Shown piece by piece: positions 36,174 through 52,317 of a stretch of 64,000 bases of DNA; positions within the stretch are counted from its first letter, which is position 1; each line of letters opens with the position of its first letter. Under the pieces are notes generated by a model. It was not told where the DNA came from and ran no database searches. It was given only the letters and a program-made list of their open reading frames with translations. This DNA comes from Mariprofundus sp. NF (GTDB lineage Bacteria > Pseudomonadota > Zetaproteobacteria > Mariprofundales > Mariprofundaceae). A program made the translations under genes and the position numbers. The DNA is taken from contig NZ_VWNC01000001.1 in assembly GCF_013387455.1 (NCBI RefSeq), positions 186,001 to 250,000 on the forward strand, in the 5' to 3' direction.

Positions 36174-36887
36174 TTATCTGTTTTCCAGCCACTTCTTGAT
36201 ATCAGCAGCGGCTTTACCACCGGCAACCATGCGGCCATCACCGGCGATCAGGGCAGGTGTGCCGTTGATATTCAGTTTCTTGGCCAGAGCCGCGATCGCA
36301 TCAAGTGGTGTGTCGCAGGTGGCTGCTTCAGGGGTGAAGTTTTCCAGCATCACCTTCTGCAGCATTTCATGCTGATCTTTGCTGCACCAGATCGATGCTG
36401 ACTTGGCACGGGCATTGGGATGCAGCTGTACCAGCGGATAGAGGAAGGTGTAGACCTTAACGCCTTCCAATATTTTCAACTCCTCTTCCAGCTTGCGGCA
36501 GTAGGGGCAATCAGGGTCGGTGAAGATAGCCAGCTTCAGCTTGGCGTTTTTGTCACCGGATAGCACAGCTTTTTCCAGCGGCAGGCTGGACCAGTCGATA
36601 CGATTGATCTCCTCTTTACGTGCACTGGTCAGGTTCTTTTTGGCAGCGGTGTCAATGATGCTGGCGCCGAGTACAAAGTAGTCACCTTTGGCGTCGGAGT
36701 AGTAGATGTTTCTGCCACTGCGTACCTCAAAGAGTCCCTTGATCGGGGTCTTGCGTACCTCATCCACCTGCTCAACACGCAGTAGTTCAGCAGAATGTTT
36801 TGTGATGGCTTCGATATCAGCCTTGGATGAACCGGCAGAAGCCAGGGTTGGCATCACCAGTAAGAGTAGAATAAGAATTGATCGCAT
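36174..36887 (-). CDS. dsbC: DsbC/DsbG-type periplasmic thiol-disulfide isomerase
   Basis: 237 residues. The start (complement of 36885-36887) has GGAGGTTTT directly before it and begins a signal peptide (MRSILILLLLVMPTLASA). An N-terminal dimerisation domain (about 25-85, PIKGLFEVRSG) leads to a thioredoxin domain with DPDCPYCRKLEEEL (active CxxC). INGTPALIAGDGR holds the cis-Pro loop. It isomerises wrong disulfides in the periplasm. It follows the TlpA gene and is oriented away from the copper cluster. Confidence 0.92.
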   Translation of the reverse strand: MRSILILLLLVMPTLASAGSSKADIEAITKHSAELLRVEQVDEVRKTPIKGLFEVRSGRNIYYSDAKGDYFVLGASIIDTAAKKNLTSARKEEINRIDWSSLPLEKAVLSGDKNAKLKLAIFTDPDCPYCRKLEEELKILEGVKVYTFLYPLVQLHPNARAKSASIWCSKDQHEMLQKVMLENFTPEAATCDTPLDAIAALAKKLNINGTPALIAGDGRMVAGGKAAADIKKWLENR

Positions 36888-36926
36888 AAAACCTCCGGAA
36901 ATTTCAACTGTATGAATCATGATTTG

Positions 36927-37418
36927 TTAACGCTGAGCGTGAAGGGGGGCGTTTTGCGCCTCGGGGAGCAGGCTTTTAAGTAGCTGATCCGAATAAGCTT
37001 TGCTGCTCCAGTCGCGCGGCCCTCTGTGCAGCTGGCTGACTTCACCATCGGCATCAATAATGATGGTGGTGGGCAGGGCCTGAGCGCCGAGCTTGCGTGC
37101 CTGATTCTCATCAGTAAGCAGAAGCGGCATGTCGATGCCGGCCTCTTGCAGAAAAGCTGTGGCGTTGGCTGCTTTTTGATCCAGCGTTACGGATATTGTC
37201 TTGATTTGCGGGTGATTGCTTACCCACTGCGCAAAGGCGGGCATCTCTGCACGGCATGAGGGGCACCATGAGGCCCAGAAGTGGACCAGTGCAGGTTTCC
37301 CTTTGAGTGAATCCAGCGTGTAGGTCGTGCCACTCTCATCCATCCATTTGAATTCGGCAGTATGGGCTGGAGTCCATGCCAACAGTGTAATGATCAACAC
37401 TGTAATCCAACGAATCAT
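36927..37418 (-). CDS. TlpA/ResA-type periplasmic thioredoxin
   Basis: 163 residues. Signal peptide MIRWITVLIITLLAW...AHTA, strong AGGAGAGCC ribosome site. HFWASWCPSCRAEMP is the TlpA-type active site and ALPTTIIIDADG the cis-Pro loop. Such proteins reduce apo-cytochrome c or copper-site cysteines. Being paired with dsbC and divergent from the copper genes, reduction of exported Cys proteins or copper sites is a reasonable inference. Confidence 0.9.
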   Translation of the reverse strand: MIRWITVLIITLLAWTPAHTAEFKWMDESGTTYTLDSLKGKPALVHFWASWCPSCRAEMPAFAQWVSNHPQIKTISVTLDQKAANATAFLQEAGIDMPLLLTDENQARKLGAQALPTTIIIDADGEVSQLHRGPRDWSSKAYSDQLLKSLLPEAQNAPLHAQR

Positions 37419-37498
37419 AAGGCTCTCCTCTTCTGTAGCAGTTGTTACAAGCGCCCGAATCTTGCAGATAACGTTGCACTACGCCATCATTCCGCGCC

Positions 37499-37900
37499 AT
37501 GCGAAAAGTACTTGCTCTGTTTCTGACTGCAACACTGTTGTGTGTCAGCTCTGTTCCTGCGTTAGCGGAAGCTGCAAGTTGTGCTGGACCTGAACTTGCC
37601 GTCAGCCTGGCGATGGGCGATGAACATGCTTCTCACCATGATGACGGGCTTGAAGAGGCCCATCTTGGTCATGATCATCACAGAGGTCTGCAGGATGATT
37701 GGCAGAAAGAGCGTATTGAGTGCGGCTGCGGCTGTCACAATAGCATCGACTCGCTACCGCATCTTCTCGCCCCGCATAATATCGACACCGCTGTTTTTCA
37801 TATGGGTGTCGACTCGCTGGCTGCCGCAGTGAGGTTTGAACCGGTGTTCTTTTACCGCGCTGCCCGCATCCCAGTCCCGCCTCCACAACTCATCTCCTGA
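37499..37900 (+). CDS. Exported His-rich protein with CGCGCH motif
   Basis: 133 residues. Signal peptide MRKVLALFLTATLLCVSS...ALA, then a His/Asp-rich stretch (DEHASHHDDG, HLGHDHHRG) and a central CGCGCHNSIDSLPHLLAPHN with clustered Cys and His, well suited to metal binding. No ribosome site is obvious. It opens the plus-strand cluster with the outer-membrane, Csp1 and PCuAC genes, so copper binding is inferred. Not a family I can name; a CopL-like regulatory or sensing role is conceivable. Confidence 0.6.
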   Translation: MRKVLALFLTATLLCVSSVPALAEAASCAGPELAVSLAMGDEHASHHDDGLEEAHLGHDHHRGLQDDWQKERIECGCGCHNSIDSLPHLLAPHNIDTAVFHMGVDSLAAAVRFEPVFFYRAARIPVPPPQLIS

Positions 37901-38125
37901 TTTCTTAAATTCTGAACGCCATCTTTTTTGATGGTCTGCTTGCGTATGCTGTCGGATATTCTATCTCCGTTCAGTTGCGCCATACCTGTATTGATTATGA
38001 TTGCTGTTAAACATGGCTTCGAGCACTCTCTTGGCAACTGTTTGTGAACAGAACGCCGTCTTAGAGATCGTGACGATTGATGCATCATACAGGTTAGAGA
38101 TGATGAAAATTAATTTGGAGAGAAC

Positions 38126-39211
38126 ATGAAAATCGCAAAATCTTTGGCCATCGCGAGCGCGCTGGTTTTATCAACTGCAGGTATGGTGCAGCAATCTGAA
38201 GCCAGTGAGTGTGGCCTCTCATGCTGTATTGCTGCCGGTGTTGACGGTGTCGGTTCGGCAACCGGTCTGACCGTCTCACTGCAGTACGACACCATGCTGA
38301 TGAAAACCAACAGACAGGGGACATCAAAAATCAGCCCGCAGCAGATTATCATTAATAATCTTGCAGCACGCGGATTTGGATCGATGTATGCCGTATCCAC
38401 CAAAATGACCATGCAGAAGATTGTTGCCAACATGGCTTATCGCATGGATGAGGATAATGTCTTCATGCTGACTGTACCGTATATCATCAACGATATGGAG
38501 ATGATGATGGGCATGAAAACTCCGGCAGGCATCCGTTACTCTAGCAATACTATGGATACCATTCAGGGACTTGGCGATGTGACTGCGATGTATCTGCGTG
38601 ATGTGTATAAAGATACCGATATCCGTACTCGTGAGCGTCTGACCCTCGGTCTGGGTATTAAAGCGCCTACCGGCAAATCCAAAGCGCGCAACGGAAGGGG
38701 TGATCTGGTACATATGATGATGCAGGCAGGTACCGATTCATGGGATGCGTTCCTGGTAGCCAACGGTACATTTGCCTTTGGTGAGCATGAAGATGGTGGT
38801 GCGCAGTGGATGCTCTCACCTTCTGCAAGTTACCATGCCACTACGCGCAACAGCCTGGGTTATAAAGTGGGCGACCGTCTGAATGCCGACATTTCTGCCC
38901 GTTACCGCATCACCTCCAAATTTAATGTGAAACTGGATGTGAATAGTGTCTACTCACAGAAGGATGACACCGATGGCACCATTGATCCTACCTCAGGAAA
39001 AATCGCTTATCAGAATGTAAATGGCAATGTGCTCGATAATGTGGCCAACACCGGTCTGGCTTCCGTTTTCATCTCACCCGGCTTCCAGTGGATTGCTGCT
39101 GATGGACTGATTCTAAGTGGTGAGTACCGTATGCCTGTATATCAGAACGTAAGAGGCATTCAGCAGGTCACCGATCACTGGTTCTTCCTGCGCGCCACGA
39201 CTTACTTCTAG
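38126..39211 (+). CDS. Met-rich outer-membrane beta-barrel protein of the copper cluster
   Basis: 361 residues. Signal peptide to about residue 27, then Cys-containing SECGLSCCIAAG at the mature N-terminus. The rest alternates as beta strands and ends in a terminal Phe (RATTYF), the usual barrel signature. NDMEMMMGMKTP and HMMMQAG are Met-rich loops that could contact Cu(I). TTG-free ATG start behind TTGGAGAGAAC. csp follows 16 bases on. A copper-related transporter or porin is inferred from neighbours; the family is unassigned. Confidence 0.7.
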   Translation: MKIAKSLAIASALVLSTAGMVQQSEASECGLSCCIAAGVDGVGSATGLTVSLQYDTMLMKTNRQGTSKISPQQIIINNLAARGFGSMYAVSTKMTMQKIVANMAYRMDEDNVFMLTVPYIINDMEMMMGMKTPAGIRYSSNTMDTIQGLGDVTAMYLRDVYKDTDIRTRERLTLGLGIKAPTGKSKARNGRGDLVHMMMQAGTDSWDAFLVANGTFAFGEHEDGGAQWMLSPSASYHATTRNSLGYKVGDRLNADISARYRITSKFNVKLDVNSVYSQKDDTDGTIDPTSGKIAYQNVNGNVLDNVANTGLASVFISPGFQWIAADGLILSGEYRMPVYQNVRGIQQVTDHWFFLRATTYF

Positions 39212-39227
39212 GCTAAGGGGAATATAG

Positions 39228-39701
39228 ATGAGTAACGATAACTTTTCTGAACAGCGCCGCAGTATGCTCAAAGGGGCAGGTGCGCTTGGTGCCACTGCCG
39301 TGGCAGCAACTGCTCTGGGTGGCAGTGCCATTGCGGCAGGTATGGATGCACACCATCACCATGCCGCTGGCGCAAAACATCTTGAGTTGGCCAAATCACT
39401 GCATCACTGCGTGGCAACTGCCGAGGCTTGTATTGACCACTGTCTTGATTCGTTCAAGACCGGGGATACAGTGCTGGCGGATTGCGCTATCAGTGTGCAG
39501 GAGACGATGGCTTTCTGTACGGCTCATGCCAAGCTGGCTTCGTATAACTCAAAACATCTGAAAGCCATGATTGAGCTGGGGATTCAGGTTTGTGCTGATT
39601 GTGAAAAGCAGTGTCGCAAACATGAAAAACATGCTTCGTGCAAAGCGTGTGCAGATGCGTGTGCAACATGCATCAAGGCGTGCAAAGCTTACACCGCATA
39701 A
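39228..39701 (+). CDS. csp1: Csp1-like copper storage protein, Tat-exported four-helix bundle
   Basis: 157 residues. A twin-arginine signal (QRRSMLKGAGALGATAVAAT) is followed by a His run (AHHHHAAG) and a helical domain with 13 cysteines, the number known for Csp1 of methanotrophs. Spacings include CIDHC, CADCEKQC, CKACADAC and CIKAC. In Csp proteins these line the core of a four-helix bundle and hold many Cu(I) ions. The Tat signal implies folding before export to the periplasm. The neighbours (Met-rich barrel, PCuAC chaperone) support a copper role. Confidence 0.9.
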   Translation: MSNDNFSEQRRSMLKGAGALGATAVAATALGGSAIAAGMDAHHHHAAGAKHLELAKSLHHCVATAEACIDHCLDSFKTGDTVLADCAISVQETMAFCTAHAKLASYNSKHLKAMIELGIQVCADCEKQCRKHEKHASCKACADACATCIKACKAYTA

Positions 39702-39711
39702 GAGAGGTAGA

Positions 39712-39739
39712 AGCGGGGTAGCCTCTTGGCTGCCCCGCT
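39712..39739 (+). terminator. Hairpin between csp1 and PCuAC genes (attenuator or weak terminator)
   Basis: AGCGGGGTAGCC-TCTT-GGCTGCCCCGCT is a 12-bp stem (one G-T pair) followed by ATTTTCGG. The short T-run suggests partial termination that would set csp1 above the downstream chaperone gene. Confidence 0.55.
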
Positions 39740-39764
39740 ATTTTCGGAACACCGAGAGGATGAT

Positions 39765-40250
39765 ATGAGAATTAAAACGTTATTACTGACAGTTGCGATG
39801 ATGATTGCGCCAGCATTGGCTGCGGCAGAGATCACTGTGGAAAATGCCTGGGTGCGCATGCCGCCACCTGTTGCTGATACTGCAGCAGGTTACCTGACGC
39901 TGAAAAATAGTGGTGATGCAGATATCGAAGTGGTTGCAATTGAATCCTCAGCTGCCGCCAAACCTGAATTTCACAGCATGTCGATGCATGATGGTATGAT
40001 GCATATGATGAAGATGGAGAAGGTGGTTGTGCCGGCCCATGGTGAGCTGCACTTTGCAACAGGTGGTAATCATCTGATGCTGACCGAGCTGACAGGCGCA
40101 CTGAATGCCGGTGACCATGTGATGCTGACACTGAAAATGTCCGATGGCAGCTCAGTGATGGTACATGCAGAGGTGCGTGATATGCGTCAGCAGAGCTCGG
40201 GTGAGAATGAGTCGAATGGTGAGGGGCACGGTGGTCATCACGGTCACTGA
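39765..40250 (+). CDS. Periplasmic Cu(I) chaperone, PCuAC family
   Basis: 161 residues. ATG at 39765 behind GAGAGGATGAT; signal peptide MRIKTLLLTVAMMIAPALA. ITVENAWVRMPPPVADTAAGYLTL and the H...M...HxM copper motif (FHSMSMHDGMM ... HLM) place it in PCuAC, which delivers Cu(I) to cytochrome oxidase or other sites. The C-terminal GEGHGGHHGH tail adds more metal ligands. Its place right after csp1 suggests it trades copper with the store. Confidence 0.93.
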   Translation: MRIKTLLLTVAMMIAPALAAAEITVENAWVRMPPPVADTAAGYLTLKNSGDADIEVVAIESSAAAKPEFHSMSMHDGMMHMMKMEKVVVPAHGELHFATGGNHLMLTELTGALNAGDHVMLTLKMSDGSSVMVHAEVRDMRQQSSGENESNGEGHGGHHGH

Positions 40251-40287
40251 TATAAGCTGACCCTTTTATTATTGGCGCTACGGATAG

Positions 40288-40323
40288 ATGGCGCAGATTA
40301 CGATTTGATGTAATCTGCGCCAT
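40288..40323. terminator. Perfect 14-bp inverted repeat after the PCuAC gene
   Basis: ATGGCGCAGATTAC (40288-40301) and GTAATCTGCGCCAT (40310-40323) pair without mismatch across an 8-base loop. No T-tract follows at once (ATCTGTTTATAG), so it may be a terminator, an RNA-stabilising stem or a regulator site. Confidence 0.5.
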
Positions 40324-40375
40324 ATCTGTTTATAGACTACTTTTTAGGCATGTTTTTCCAATATAGGGGGGCAAT

Positions 40376-41020
40376 ATGAGATTTGTGATACGGCTTGTGC
40401 TCTGCTTCTCTCTATTAAGCTTTACGGCCTGCGAGTTTGATCGCCATGAGATGCATCAGGCACGCCAGAACCTCTCCTATACGACCAAGCTGCATCACCT
40501 GCATATGCTGATGAACCACTCCCTGCAGATGGCCACACAGGGCGCAGATATGAATCTTCAGGGCATCGAACATGGCCCGGCGATGTTGGTCAAGTCTTCT
40601 GAACTGCTGAAACGCGCGATGAGTGGGCCTGAGATGGCACGCATGCATAAATATGGCAGTGGTAACAAGCCCTTGATGAAGATGACCCAGGAGCTTGCCG
40701 ATAAAGCTTCTGTACTGATTGAAGCGATGAAAGCGATCTCAACCAAAAGCGAGGATAAAAACGCCATCCGCATGCTCAATCACGCGGTTGAGGTGGCAGC
40801 TACCGGCAGCAGCCTGATTATGCTGGGTCAGCAGGGTATGGCCGGAGATATTGATGCGGTGATGGTGAACCATGGCCAGTTGATGCTTGGCGAAGCTTCA
40901 GGGCTTCTGCATGACACCACCGGAGCCCCGGAGTACCGGTTGCTGGTCAGTGGTGTGGTACAGATGCTGATCGGGATTCCCGATATGCCGGTGGATAGTG
41001 AAGATGACGAAAGTAAGTAA
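40376..41020 (+). CDS. His/Met-rich helical lipoprotein
   Basis: 214 residues. Lipobox LLSFTAC (Cys19) after a short signal; AGGGGGGCAAT precedes the ATG. The mature part is helical and unusually rich in His and Met (HEMHQARQ, KLHHLHMLMNHSLQM, EMARMHKYG, VMVNHGQLML), again suggesting copper contact. It closes the copper gene group and is followed 19 bases later by ftsY. Family not recognised. Confidence 0.65.
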   Translation: MRFVIRLVLCFSLLSFTACEFDRHEMHQARQNLSYTTKLHHLHMLMNHSLQMATQGADMNLQGIEHGPAMLVKSSELLKRAMSGPEMARMHKYGSGNKPLMKMTQELADKASVLIEAMKAISTKSEDKNAIRMLNHAVEVAATGSSLIMLGQQGMAGDIDAVMVNHGQLMLGEASGLLHDTTGAPEYRLLVSGVVQMLIGIPDMPVDSEDDESK

Positions 41021-51207: not shown

Positions 51208-52155
51208 TTAATCAGCGTGACGATGGAAGAGAAGTTTGTTGCGGTACTCTTCCGGGTCTTTGGTCTGGGTCATGGCACCGCCACGTGGGAAGAGGGCGTC
51301 ATAGAGGCGTGAAACCCAGAAACGCAGTGCACCGAGCCTGAGCAGTAGCGGTAGTGCTTCGGACTCCTCCTCCTGCAGTGGGCGCAGGGATTCATAACCG
51401 GCCATAAATGCTTTGATACGAGACTCATCCTGATCAGAGAGTTGAACAGCCTGGGCATTGAGGGTGATGGCAATATCCATCGCATATGGGGCTGTGTGGG
51501 CGTAGTAGAAGTCGATAATGCCGGAGGCTTTGTTGCCTTCAAAGAGGATGTTGTCCACGAACAGATCGCCGTGAATCACGCCTGAGGGAAGCGAGTCCCA
51601 AGCGCAGGACTGCTGAAAATCGAGTTCATCCTGCAGAAGCTGTGCGGCATCTGCGCCGTAAGTCTCACGCGTGCCGTCCACAACTGCTGCGATATGCTCA
51701 TCCAGCCATGCCATGCCGGTTGGATTGTCGCGTGATTCGTCAAAATCACCACCTGCCAGATGCAGTTGTGCCAGTGCGCGACCTGAAGAGGTGAGCTGCT
51801 CTTCATTCAGTTCATCGAGTGTGCGGCCTGAAAGACATGAGACAATACAGCCCTGCTTGCCGTGAACCTCGAAGAGCAGTGAGCCATCGTTGCGCTGCAT
51901 CACATCCGGGCATGCCAGCTCATTATGGGCCAGATGACGCATCAGACGCATGAAATATGGGAGTTCTGTCGCATCCATGCGCTCAAATATCGTTAGTACA
52001 AAACGGGCGGCGTTGTCGTGGTCTTTGGTGGTTACGAAAAAGTTGCTGTTCTCAATGCCGGCAGCAATGCCTTCAAAACTGGCCAGTTCGCCCAGGCTGT
52101 AGCCGGCGAGGATGGCGGAGATATCGGATGCGGAGAGTTCTGTGTAGACGGACAT
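51208..52155 (-). CDS. thrB: Homoserine kinase, APH-fold (ThrB type II)
   Basis: 315 residues from the ATG at the complement of 52153-52155, which gives the usual MSVYTELSASDI N-terminus. It phosphorylates homoserine for threonine synthesis. It belongs to the aminoglycoside-phosphotransferase fold: GIENSNFFV, FMRLMRHLAHNELACP, HGDLFVDNILF (catalytic loop) and GIIDFYYAHTAPYAMDIAI (metal-binding Asp). It is unrelated to the GHMP-type ThrB of E. coli. It competes with metA for homoserine. Confidence 0.92.
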   Translation of the reverse strand: MSVYTELSASDISAILAGYSLGELASFEGIAAGIENSNFFVTTKDHDNAARFVLTIFERMDATELPYFMRLMRHLAHNELACPDVMQRNDGSLLFEVHGKQGCIVSCLSGRTLDELNEEQLTSSGRALAQLHLAGGDFDESRDNPTGMAWLDEHIAAVVDGTRETYGADAAQLLQDELDFQQSCAWDSLPSGVIHGDLFVDNILFEGNKASGIIDFYYAHTAPYAMDIAITLNAQAVQLSDQDESRIKAFMAGYESLRPLQEEESEALPLLLRLGALRFWVSRLYDALFPRGGAMTQTKDPEEYRNKLLFHRHAD

Positions 52156-52317
52156 GGGCGGGAATCCTAGCGGATGGCCGGAGCAAAAGTCATCTGCTCT
52201 TGTGAACACCCATAAATAAAACGCGTCTTTGGCATGCAAATTGCGTCATGTTGTGCCTGTTGTTGCATTAAAGTGGCAGTAAAGGTTTAACGGTCATGAA
52301 TTGAGGGGTTGGATAGT

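Follow-up and report, generated by a model that had tools for sequence, protein, structure and literature searches.

Copper-sensing leader peptides are a recent discovery, and the two worked examples, CruR and CutF, respond in differing directions: copper represses CruR operons and induces cutO. In CruR, the spacing between the CXXC motif and the RAPP sequence matters, and a copper-starvation operon for oxidase biogenesis in Bradyrhizobium also starts with a cruR homologue (PMC9426467); the importer encoded by cruR-crtA takes up copper and has been connected with oxidase function (PMC12914433). For CutF, an anti-Shine-Dalgarno (anti-SD) sequence has been described in the intergenic stem-loop of cutF-cutO (PMC9973294). 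A direct demonstration of stalling in copper-sensing leaders was said to be lacking in 2024 (PMC10987492). The copper storage protein Csp1 is already known outside methanotrophs, as NGO1701 of Neisseria gonorrhoeae (PMC12510493). Here we describe a locus at 36174–41020 of a 64,000-nucleotide (nt) stretch of the Mariprofundus sp. NF genome (contig NZ_VWNC01000001.1, positions 186,001 to 250,000; hereafter the window), which probably comprises a copper-responsive operon that supplies a CuA-type cytochrome oxidase under the control of a nascent-chain sensor. An earlier note on this DNA had read the locus as a copper uptake, storage and delivery route built around a Csp1-like protein, and all seven open reading frames (ORFs) that it listed are present.

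The first gene of the operon (37499..37900, + strand) encodes a 133-residue protein with a signal peptide (judged by eye), a His-rich linker, an ECGCGCH motif and the C-terminal sequence PPPQLIS. The codons of CGCGCH, a putative metal-binding site, lie at 37721..37738 (+), and those of PPP, a stall-like motif written CCG-CCT-CCA, lie at 37877..37885 (+), four residues before the stop codon. The exported, His-rich protein that the earlier note had taken for a copper carrier therefore exists, but its spacing, PPP motif, codon bias and covarying RNA stem are the anatomy of a copper-sensing leader peptide, and from its sequence it looks like a regulatory upstream ORF (uORF) of the CutF/CruR kind, proposed to act as a nascent-chain copper sensor. 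Homologues occur in ~41 of the 78 zetaproteobacterial genomes that form our class-wide sample, while a search of ~320 other Pseudomonadota returned two weak fragments and nothing convincing. The family shares a common plan, consisting of a signal peptide, a His/Met-rich linker of highly variable length, the motif E-C-G-C-G-C-[HN]...P..L.PH, ~30 unconserved residues, PPP and the stop codon.

The spacing within this plan is strikingly constrained. The first Cys of CGCG lies exactly 53 residues from the last PP in 36/36 distinct homologues with the CxCG motif, a count that was obtained for 24/24 distinct sequences initially and then for 12/12 further sequences found later, and PPP lies 2–8 residues before the stop codon in all 36. 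The residues between the Cys motif and PP are mostly unconserved despite this fixed spacing, and members with an altered Cys motif still place a Cys 50–53 residues from PP. Genuine DUF2946 proteins, the family of CruR, have a Cys-to-PP distance of 49–53 in 11/12 cases, the twelfth being a mis-assigned frame. The simplest reading is that the ribosome tunnel dictates this spacing, like a ruler, with the metal site having just emerged when the ribosome is at PP. Like the CutF-like leaders defined previously (PMC9973294), the protein is shorter than 150 residues, carries a signal peptide and a Cys motif, has PP within its last 15 residues and precedes a same-strand gene within 1000 nt, and the SD sequence of that gene is hidden in a predicted, covarying RNA stem; some homologues exceed the 150-residue size bound. 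Assignment of the leader to DUF2946 (PF11162) was rejected, since 0/23 members match the profile at E ≤ 1 and profile–profile comparison aligns the signal peptide alone; one distant homologue overlaps a sub-threshold DUF2946 match (E 0.009). The CXXC and RAPP motifs of CruR are not present in the leader, which has CGCGC and PPP instead; the spacing rule nonetheless holds.

The second line of evidence is a predicted regulatory RNA in the intergenic region (37901..38125, +), with a closing stem that runs from the 3′ end of the leader gene to the SD sequence of the following gene, which encodes an outer-membrane barrel. Specifically, CUCCA (37881–37885), part of the PPP codons CCG CCU CCA, pairs with the UGGAG of the barrel gene (38116..38120, +) with a probability of ~0.97 in the predicted leader-barrel mRNA, such that the SD sequence is predicted to be sequestered. 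Class-wide, the mean pairing of the SD sequence with the leader end is 0.90, compared to 0.62 for shuffled intergenic RNA. CCU encodes the penultimate Pro in 34/40 leader homologues but accounts for just 32/133 Pro codons of the window genes. In addition, cognate 5′ and 3′ arms pair better than arms exchanged between loci, a result equaled in 0/100000 permutations, and likewise in 0/100000 when the SD and anti-SD sequences were removed. For 16 held-out loci that were not used to find the structure, the same test again gave 0/100000, with P ≥ 0.75 in 14/16. The SD sequence is paired all the same at locus L025, where the downstream gene is other than the barrel.

The intergenic region is 225 nt long here and 111 nt in the closest relative (the sister genome, L019). 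The extra segment of ~114 nt bears ACCTGTAT/ATACAGGT-type ends and was rejected as a repeat element, with one copy in the genome; the SD lock is predicted with this segment in place as well. Within the closed region, hairpin 1 (GCCATC-loop-GATGGT; 37918..37935, +) has a 7-pair consensus in 8 relatives. It was the sole structure recovered by RNAalifold from the whole intergenic region, because the alignment left out the 3′ arm of the leader. Hairpin 1 lies shortly after the leader stop codon and is kept throughout Mariprofundus; it might act as an additional pause site, or in protein binding or RNA stability. At DUF2946 loci (L121, L152–L175), the downstream SD sequence is predicted to pair with the leader end in 7/9 leaders ending in RAPP, RGPP or AAPP, although just 4/12 contain CCUCC; an anti-SD sequence inside the stall codons may be a general trick, DUF2946/RAPP leaders included. 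More tentatively, and at somewhat less than even chances, the leader family is lineage-specific and possibly evolved independently, with arrest codons that are themselves the anti-SD sequence, such that stalling and RNA locking would share nine bases.

The gene behind the lock (38126..39211, +) encodes a Met-rich outer-membrane β-barrel with an N-terminal CGLSCC motif. As the earlier note had claimed, it is rich in Met (6.1%, compared to 2.3–3.4% in four housekeeping genes), and 10 Met and 3 Cys are invariant in seven orthologues; its nearest named relatives belong to Mariprofundus, with 91% identity in Mariprofundus sp. KV. The predicted fold, from a model of modest confidence, resembles the 12-strand outer-membrane channels FapF and COG4313 (Foldseek E 4e-10 for FapF and 6e-9 for 4rl8, COG4313; model mean pLDDT 60), and a Pfam scan revealed no plug domain of TonB-dependent transporters. 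Neither the barrel, the CGCGCH protein nor a lipoprotein encoded further downstream matches a Pfam family above cut-off. In genus g4 (G009, G012 and G019), the same leader precedes a TonB-dependent receptor in place of the barrel (Plug domain 2e-13 in G019). The leader thus heads a TonB-dependent receptor in parallel to cruR-crtA, which supports the barrel as a putative outer-membrane copper channel.

The third gene (39228..39701, +) is, judged by its sequence, a genuine Csp1, a Tat-exported four-helix-bundle storage protein with 13 Cys that would bind Cu(I) by virtue of family membership. It scores 118 bits against the TIGR04401 'Csp1 family' model (cut-off 100), its closest matches among solved structures are the Csp1 entries 8r4l and 5fjd (E 9e-17 for 5fjd), and 13/13 Cys coincide with those of Methylosinus Csp1 in a gapless 114-residue alignment. 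The twin-arginine-like start SEQRRSML (SEQRRSMLKGAGALG), judged by eye, lies within the matched model region. A genome search with the DUF326 profile (PF03860) gave no match, and Csp1 was detected through TIGR04401 instead. The fourth gene (39762..40250, +) encodes the periplasmic copper chaperone PCuAC (PF04314 2.9e-33; 114 bits, gathering cut-off 29.4), as previously noted, and is the only PF04314 match in the genome. The divergent arm consists of a DsbC-like disulfide isomerase with a CPYC motif (36174..36920, − strand; PF10411 4.7e-13, PF13098 5.1e-21) and a TlpA/ResA-like thioredoxin with WASWCPSC (36927..37418, −; PF08534 (Redoxin) 1.6e-19).

Mariprofundus relatives keep the order rdgB-rph-dsbC-tlpA / leader-barrel-csp1-pcuac-lipoprotein-ftsY, and the survey of csp1, barrel and CGCGCH genes that the earlier note had called for thus revealed related neighborhoods. 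Across the class, the constant core is the CGCGCH leader gene followed by a gene for an outer-membrane protein, usually with tlpA divergent, and csp1, pcuac and the lipoprotein gene are variably present around it. One genome (G048) has the entire locus minus csp1, which is located elsewhere, and others (G042, G070 and G076 among them) have the leader and barrel alone. The arrangement rph-dsbC-tlpA adjoins leader-barrel in many Zetaproteobacteria, and tlpA remains at this position in L020 and L081, where dsbC and rph do not. Many relatives have the leader and barrel (with or without tlpA) but no csp1, which makes csp1 an accessory gene rather than the center of the module that the earlier note had made it; the core is the leader with the outer-membrane channel. 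Around 14 csp1 genes from outside the Zetaproteobacteria, no leader or barrel homologue was found up to a distance of 1.5 kb; uORF-like candidates beside those genes were rejected, as they look like out-of-frame GC-rich ORFs and contain no CxC motif.

Distant loci have a Met-rich barrel at 25% identity, after which come a small c-type-like cytochrome, a second TlpA and PCuAC, sometimes with Csp1. The cytochrome (PF09626-like at L040:5027-8128) and second TlpA lie between the barrel and PCuAC or csp1, as they also do in the distant module at L025:5557-10235. At L025 and L028, the leader is followed by a Met-containing, lipoprotein-like protein of ~600 residues. Off-locus copies of the barrel or csp1 often adjoin a RegBA/PrrBA-like pair of histidine kinase and Fis-type regulator (L074:6065-7973, L036:9164-11584, L028:9450 onwards and L032:6855-9571), which suggests that the copper store is additionally under redox-linked control.

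The likely destination of the copper is a CuA-type oxidase. The genome has three COX1-family genes, and an aa3 (CuA) operon on another contig reads COX3-SCO-COX2-COX1-CyoE-SCO1, with CtaA nearby; in G044, G045 and G071, the aa3 genes have PCuAC as a neighbor. Near the aa3 operon, a gene at L198:9129-9689 has a weak cupredoxin-like match (PF13473, E 2.9e-4, below cut-off) and is a possible copper client. The presence of Csp1 and COX2 agrees in 23/23 genomes of the host genus (7 with both, 16 with neither), and class-wide 11 genomes have both, 3 COX2 only, 6 Csp1 only and 58 neither (Fisher 4e-7). Together with the sole PCuAC and the SCO genes of the aa3 operon, this co-occurrence supports the earlier suggestion of a copper oxidase as the client. 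The TlpA–PCuAC–SCO pathway is an established route of CuA assembly in Bradyrhizobium, and the more familiar role of TlpA is the reduction of CuA/SCO. For this reason, and because the divergent pair is conserved next to the leader and barrel where csp1 is absent, keeping the Csp1 cysteines reduced, as had been proposed for DsbC and TlpA, is unlikely to be their main role; the TlpA/PCuAC/SCO pathway fits the divergent TlpA better. Overall, the locus most likely encodes a periplasmic copper uptake, storage and delivery set for a copper oxidase. To this extent the proposed route stands; a carrier role of the CGCGCH protein is not supported, and the lipoprotein is probably no member of the operon.

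The mechanism that we propose joins these elements. As the ribosome translates the leader (37499–37900), the exported segment bearing the CGCGCH metal site would lie outside the exit tunnel by the time that the slow PPP codons are reached, because the site is 53 residues before PP. The same codons, as CUCCA, would be the anti-SD sequence closing the long stem over the barrel start. A ribosome held at PPP would keep the stem open, allowing barrel, csp1 and pcuac to be translated, and once a ribosome had finished the leader the stem would form again; the duration of the hold would change when metal bound the nascent chain. Copper would then enter through the barrel in the outer membrane and be buffered by Csp1, and PCuAC would hand it to the SCO proteins and the CuA center of aa3, with the divergent TlpA and DsbC probably performing the thiol chemistry of the same assembly line. 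The computations establish what the genes are, the fixed Cys-to-PP distance, the codon bias, the predicted covarying structure that sequesters the SD sequence, the synteny and gene content, and the co-occurrence with the oxidase; we infer stalling at PPP, copper as the ligand, control of expression, the sign of the response and copper transport by the barrel.

Several observations weigh against this proposal. The pairing is weak or absent at L038, L028, L082, L022 and L118. CCUCC and GGAG pair easily, and the shuffled mean is already 0.62; SD pairing by itself is therefore weak, and weight is placed on the permutation test and codon bias. Double-sided changes support just 2 pairs of hairpin 1, and the barrel model has a mean pLDDT of just 60. 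The p-values for co-occurrence of Csp1 and COX2 are optimistic because the relatives are not independent, and the co-occurrence is support rather than proof; csp1 also occurs without a COX2 match in G022, G026, G035 and G036 (Ghiorsea-like, genus g6), G020 and G002. The CGCGCH protein could alternatively be a periplasmic His/Cys-rich copper carrier, with the intergenic structure incidental, which would account for the signal peptide, the His/Met-rich linker, the up to 8 Cys of the homologues and their location in copper loci. We consider this very improbable, as a carrier would not be expected to keep an exact 53-residue spacing over unconserved residues, nor PPP so invariably close to the stop codon, the CCU bias and a covarying stem that closes the SD sequence. 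Rho-dependent attenuation, as proposed for CruR, with the SD-closing stem secondary, is a less remote alternative but still an unlikely one. In its favor is the precedent of CruR, which has a long intergenic region and shares the motif spacing, but leader-barrel intergenic regions are mostly ~70–140 nt across loci, the intergenic RNA shows no excess of C over G at most loci, and the stem that reaches the SD sequence covaries.

If the leader worked in the direction of CutF, copper would prolong the stall and switch the operon on, serving copper tolerance, with Csp1 taking up excess copper and the barrel exporting or secreting it. The SD-closing stem does resemble the design of cutF-cutO, and protection from copper by a Csp is known in Neisseria gonorrhoeae (PMC12510493), but PCuAC and an outer-membrane channel that is swapped for a TonB receptor in g4 are the gene content of acquisition, and a supply function is suggested by the single PCuAC and by the joint occurrence with CuA oxidase. 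We therefore regard this direction as doubtful, and induction by copper starvation, as in cruR operons, as about twice as likely because of the gene content and the TonB-receptor swap. It is similarly doubtful, though conceivable, that the module feeds other cuproproteins, such as cbb3 oxidase or cupredoxin-like electron carriers, rather than CuA. COX1-family oxidases occur in 76/78 genomes, the leader and barrel are also found in genomes without COX2, and the Ghiorsea-like genomes have csp1 without COX2; on the other side, csp1 tracks COX2 exactly within the host genus, and the leader and barrel may serve several enzymes while csp1 and pcuac serve CuA.

A probable promoter, TTGCAG-17 nt-CATCAT (37462..37490, +), precedes the leader gene, with TTGCA kept in 10/10 aligned upstream regions; a consensus promoter scan did not list it and gave nothing useful, and the promoter was identified from its conservation. 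Because the −10-like CATCAT ends ~8 nt before the leader ATG and no SD sequence precedes the leader (37462–37498), its mRNA may be leaderless or nearly so. At the other end, a terminator-like hairpin (40288..40323, +) closes the operon, and 7/7 relatives examined have an equivalent hairpin, its tail U-rich to a varying degree, between the genes for PCuAC and the lipoprotein. The His/Met-rich helical lipoprotein that had been counted with the module (40376..41020, +) is present, but because of this hairpin its gene is probably transcribed with ftsY and not with the operon. It belongs to a family with a 'RAMSGPEM..MH' signature, situated between the copper locus and ftsY (further members at L078:7274-7792, L082:7288-7941 and L089:6635-7165; 'RAMSGPEM' in the window protein). 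A role as a second four-helix copper store was rejected, as the model is a helical bundle but has no significant match in the Protein Data Bank (PDB). Elsewhere in the window, an APH-family phosphotransferase (51208–52239; PF01636, 1.6e-35) lies in a lower-GC segment, beside a Sel1-repeat protein.

With ~40 natural leader variants, an exact 53-residue ruler, an anti-SD sequence in the stall codons and a simple operon, the locus offers a clean test system, and the leader family is suited to testing how a ribosome reads metal binding outside the tunnel. The tie of Csp1 to a putative sensor and an oxidase in non-methanotrophic iron oxidizers also bears on the question of the purpose of Csp1.

Among known systems, cruR-crtA/bfrG of Bordetella pertussis is similar in that CruR (DUF2946, PF11162) is an exported leader with a Cys motif, a C-terminal PP and a Cys-to-PP distance of 49–53, and in that the leader opens a copper operon in which the gene for an outer-membrane importer comes next, with PCuAC present in some cases. 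The present leader differs in having no detectable DUF2946 homology, with CGCGC for CXXC and PPP for RAPP, and the operon differs in its shorter intergenic RNA with predicted SD sequestration, its mostly plugless barrel and its csp1 gene. CutF of Rhodobacter capsulatus (cutFOG; PMC9973294) is likewise a Sec-exported leader with a Cys motif, C-terminal prolines and a stem over the next SD sequence, but its anti-SD sequence is part of the intergenic stem-loop, whereas here it lies in the PPP codons themselves, and the downstream genes here serve acquisition and storage instead of encoding a multicopper oxidase. Csp1 shares the Tat-exported four-helix bundle and all 13 Cys with Csp1 of Methylosinus trichosporium and Csp (NGO1701) of Neisseria gonorrhoeae, and differs in occurring in a non-methanotroph, in an operon with a leader, barrel and PCuAC. 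As in the TlpA–PCuAC–SCO pathway of Bradyrhizobium, TlpA and PCuAC are found together in the window and SCO and COX2 elsewhere in the genome, but here the pathway is split over two contigs and has Csp1 and an outer-membrane channel attached. The proposed opening by a stalled ribosome of a stem over the SD sequence of the next gene recalls the arrest peptides SecM, VemP and MifM, with the difference that the proposed ligand is a metal on the nascent chain rather than secretion status. Three features appear new in the literature searched: a zetaproteobacterial leader family that is distinct in sequence and keeps an exact ruler, members of which may stand unnamed in the CutF survey lists; an anti-SD sequence within the stall codons; and putative control by such a leader over a Csp1 store beside an oxidase supply line.

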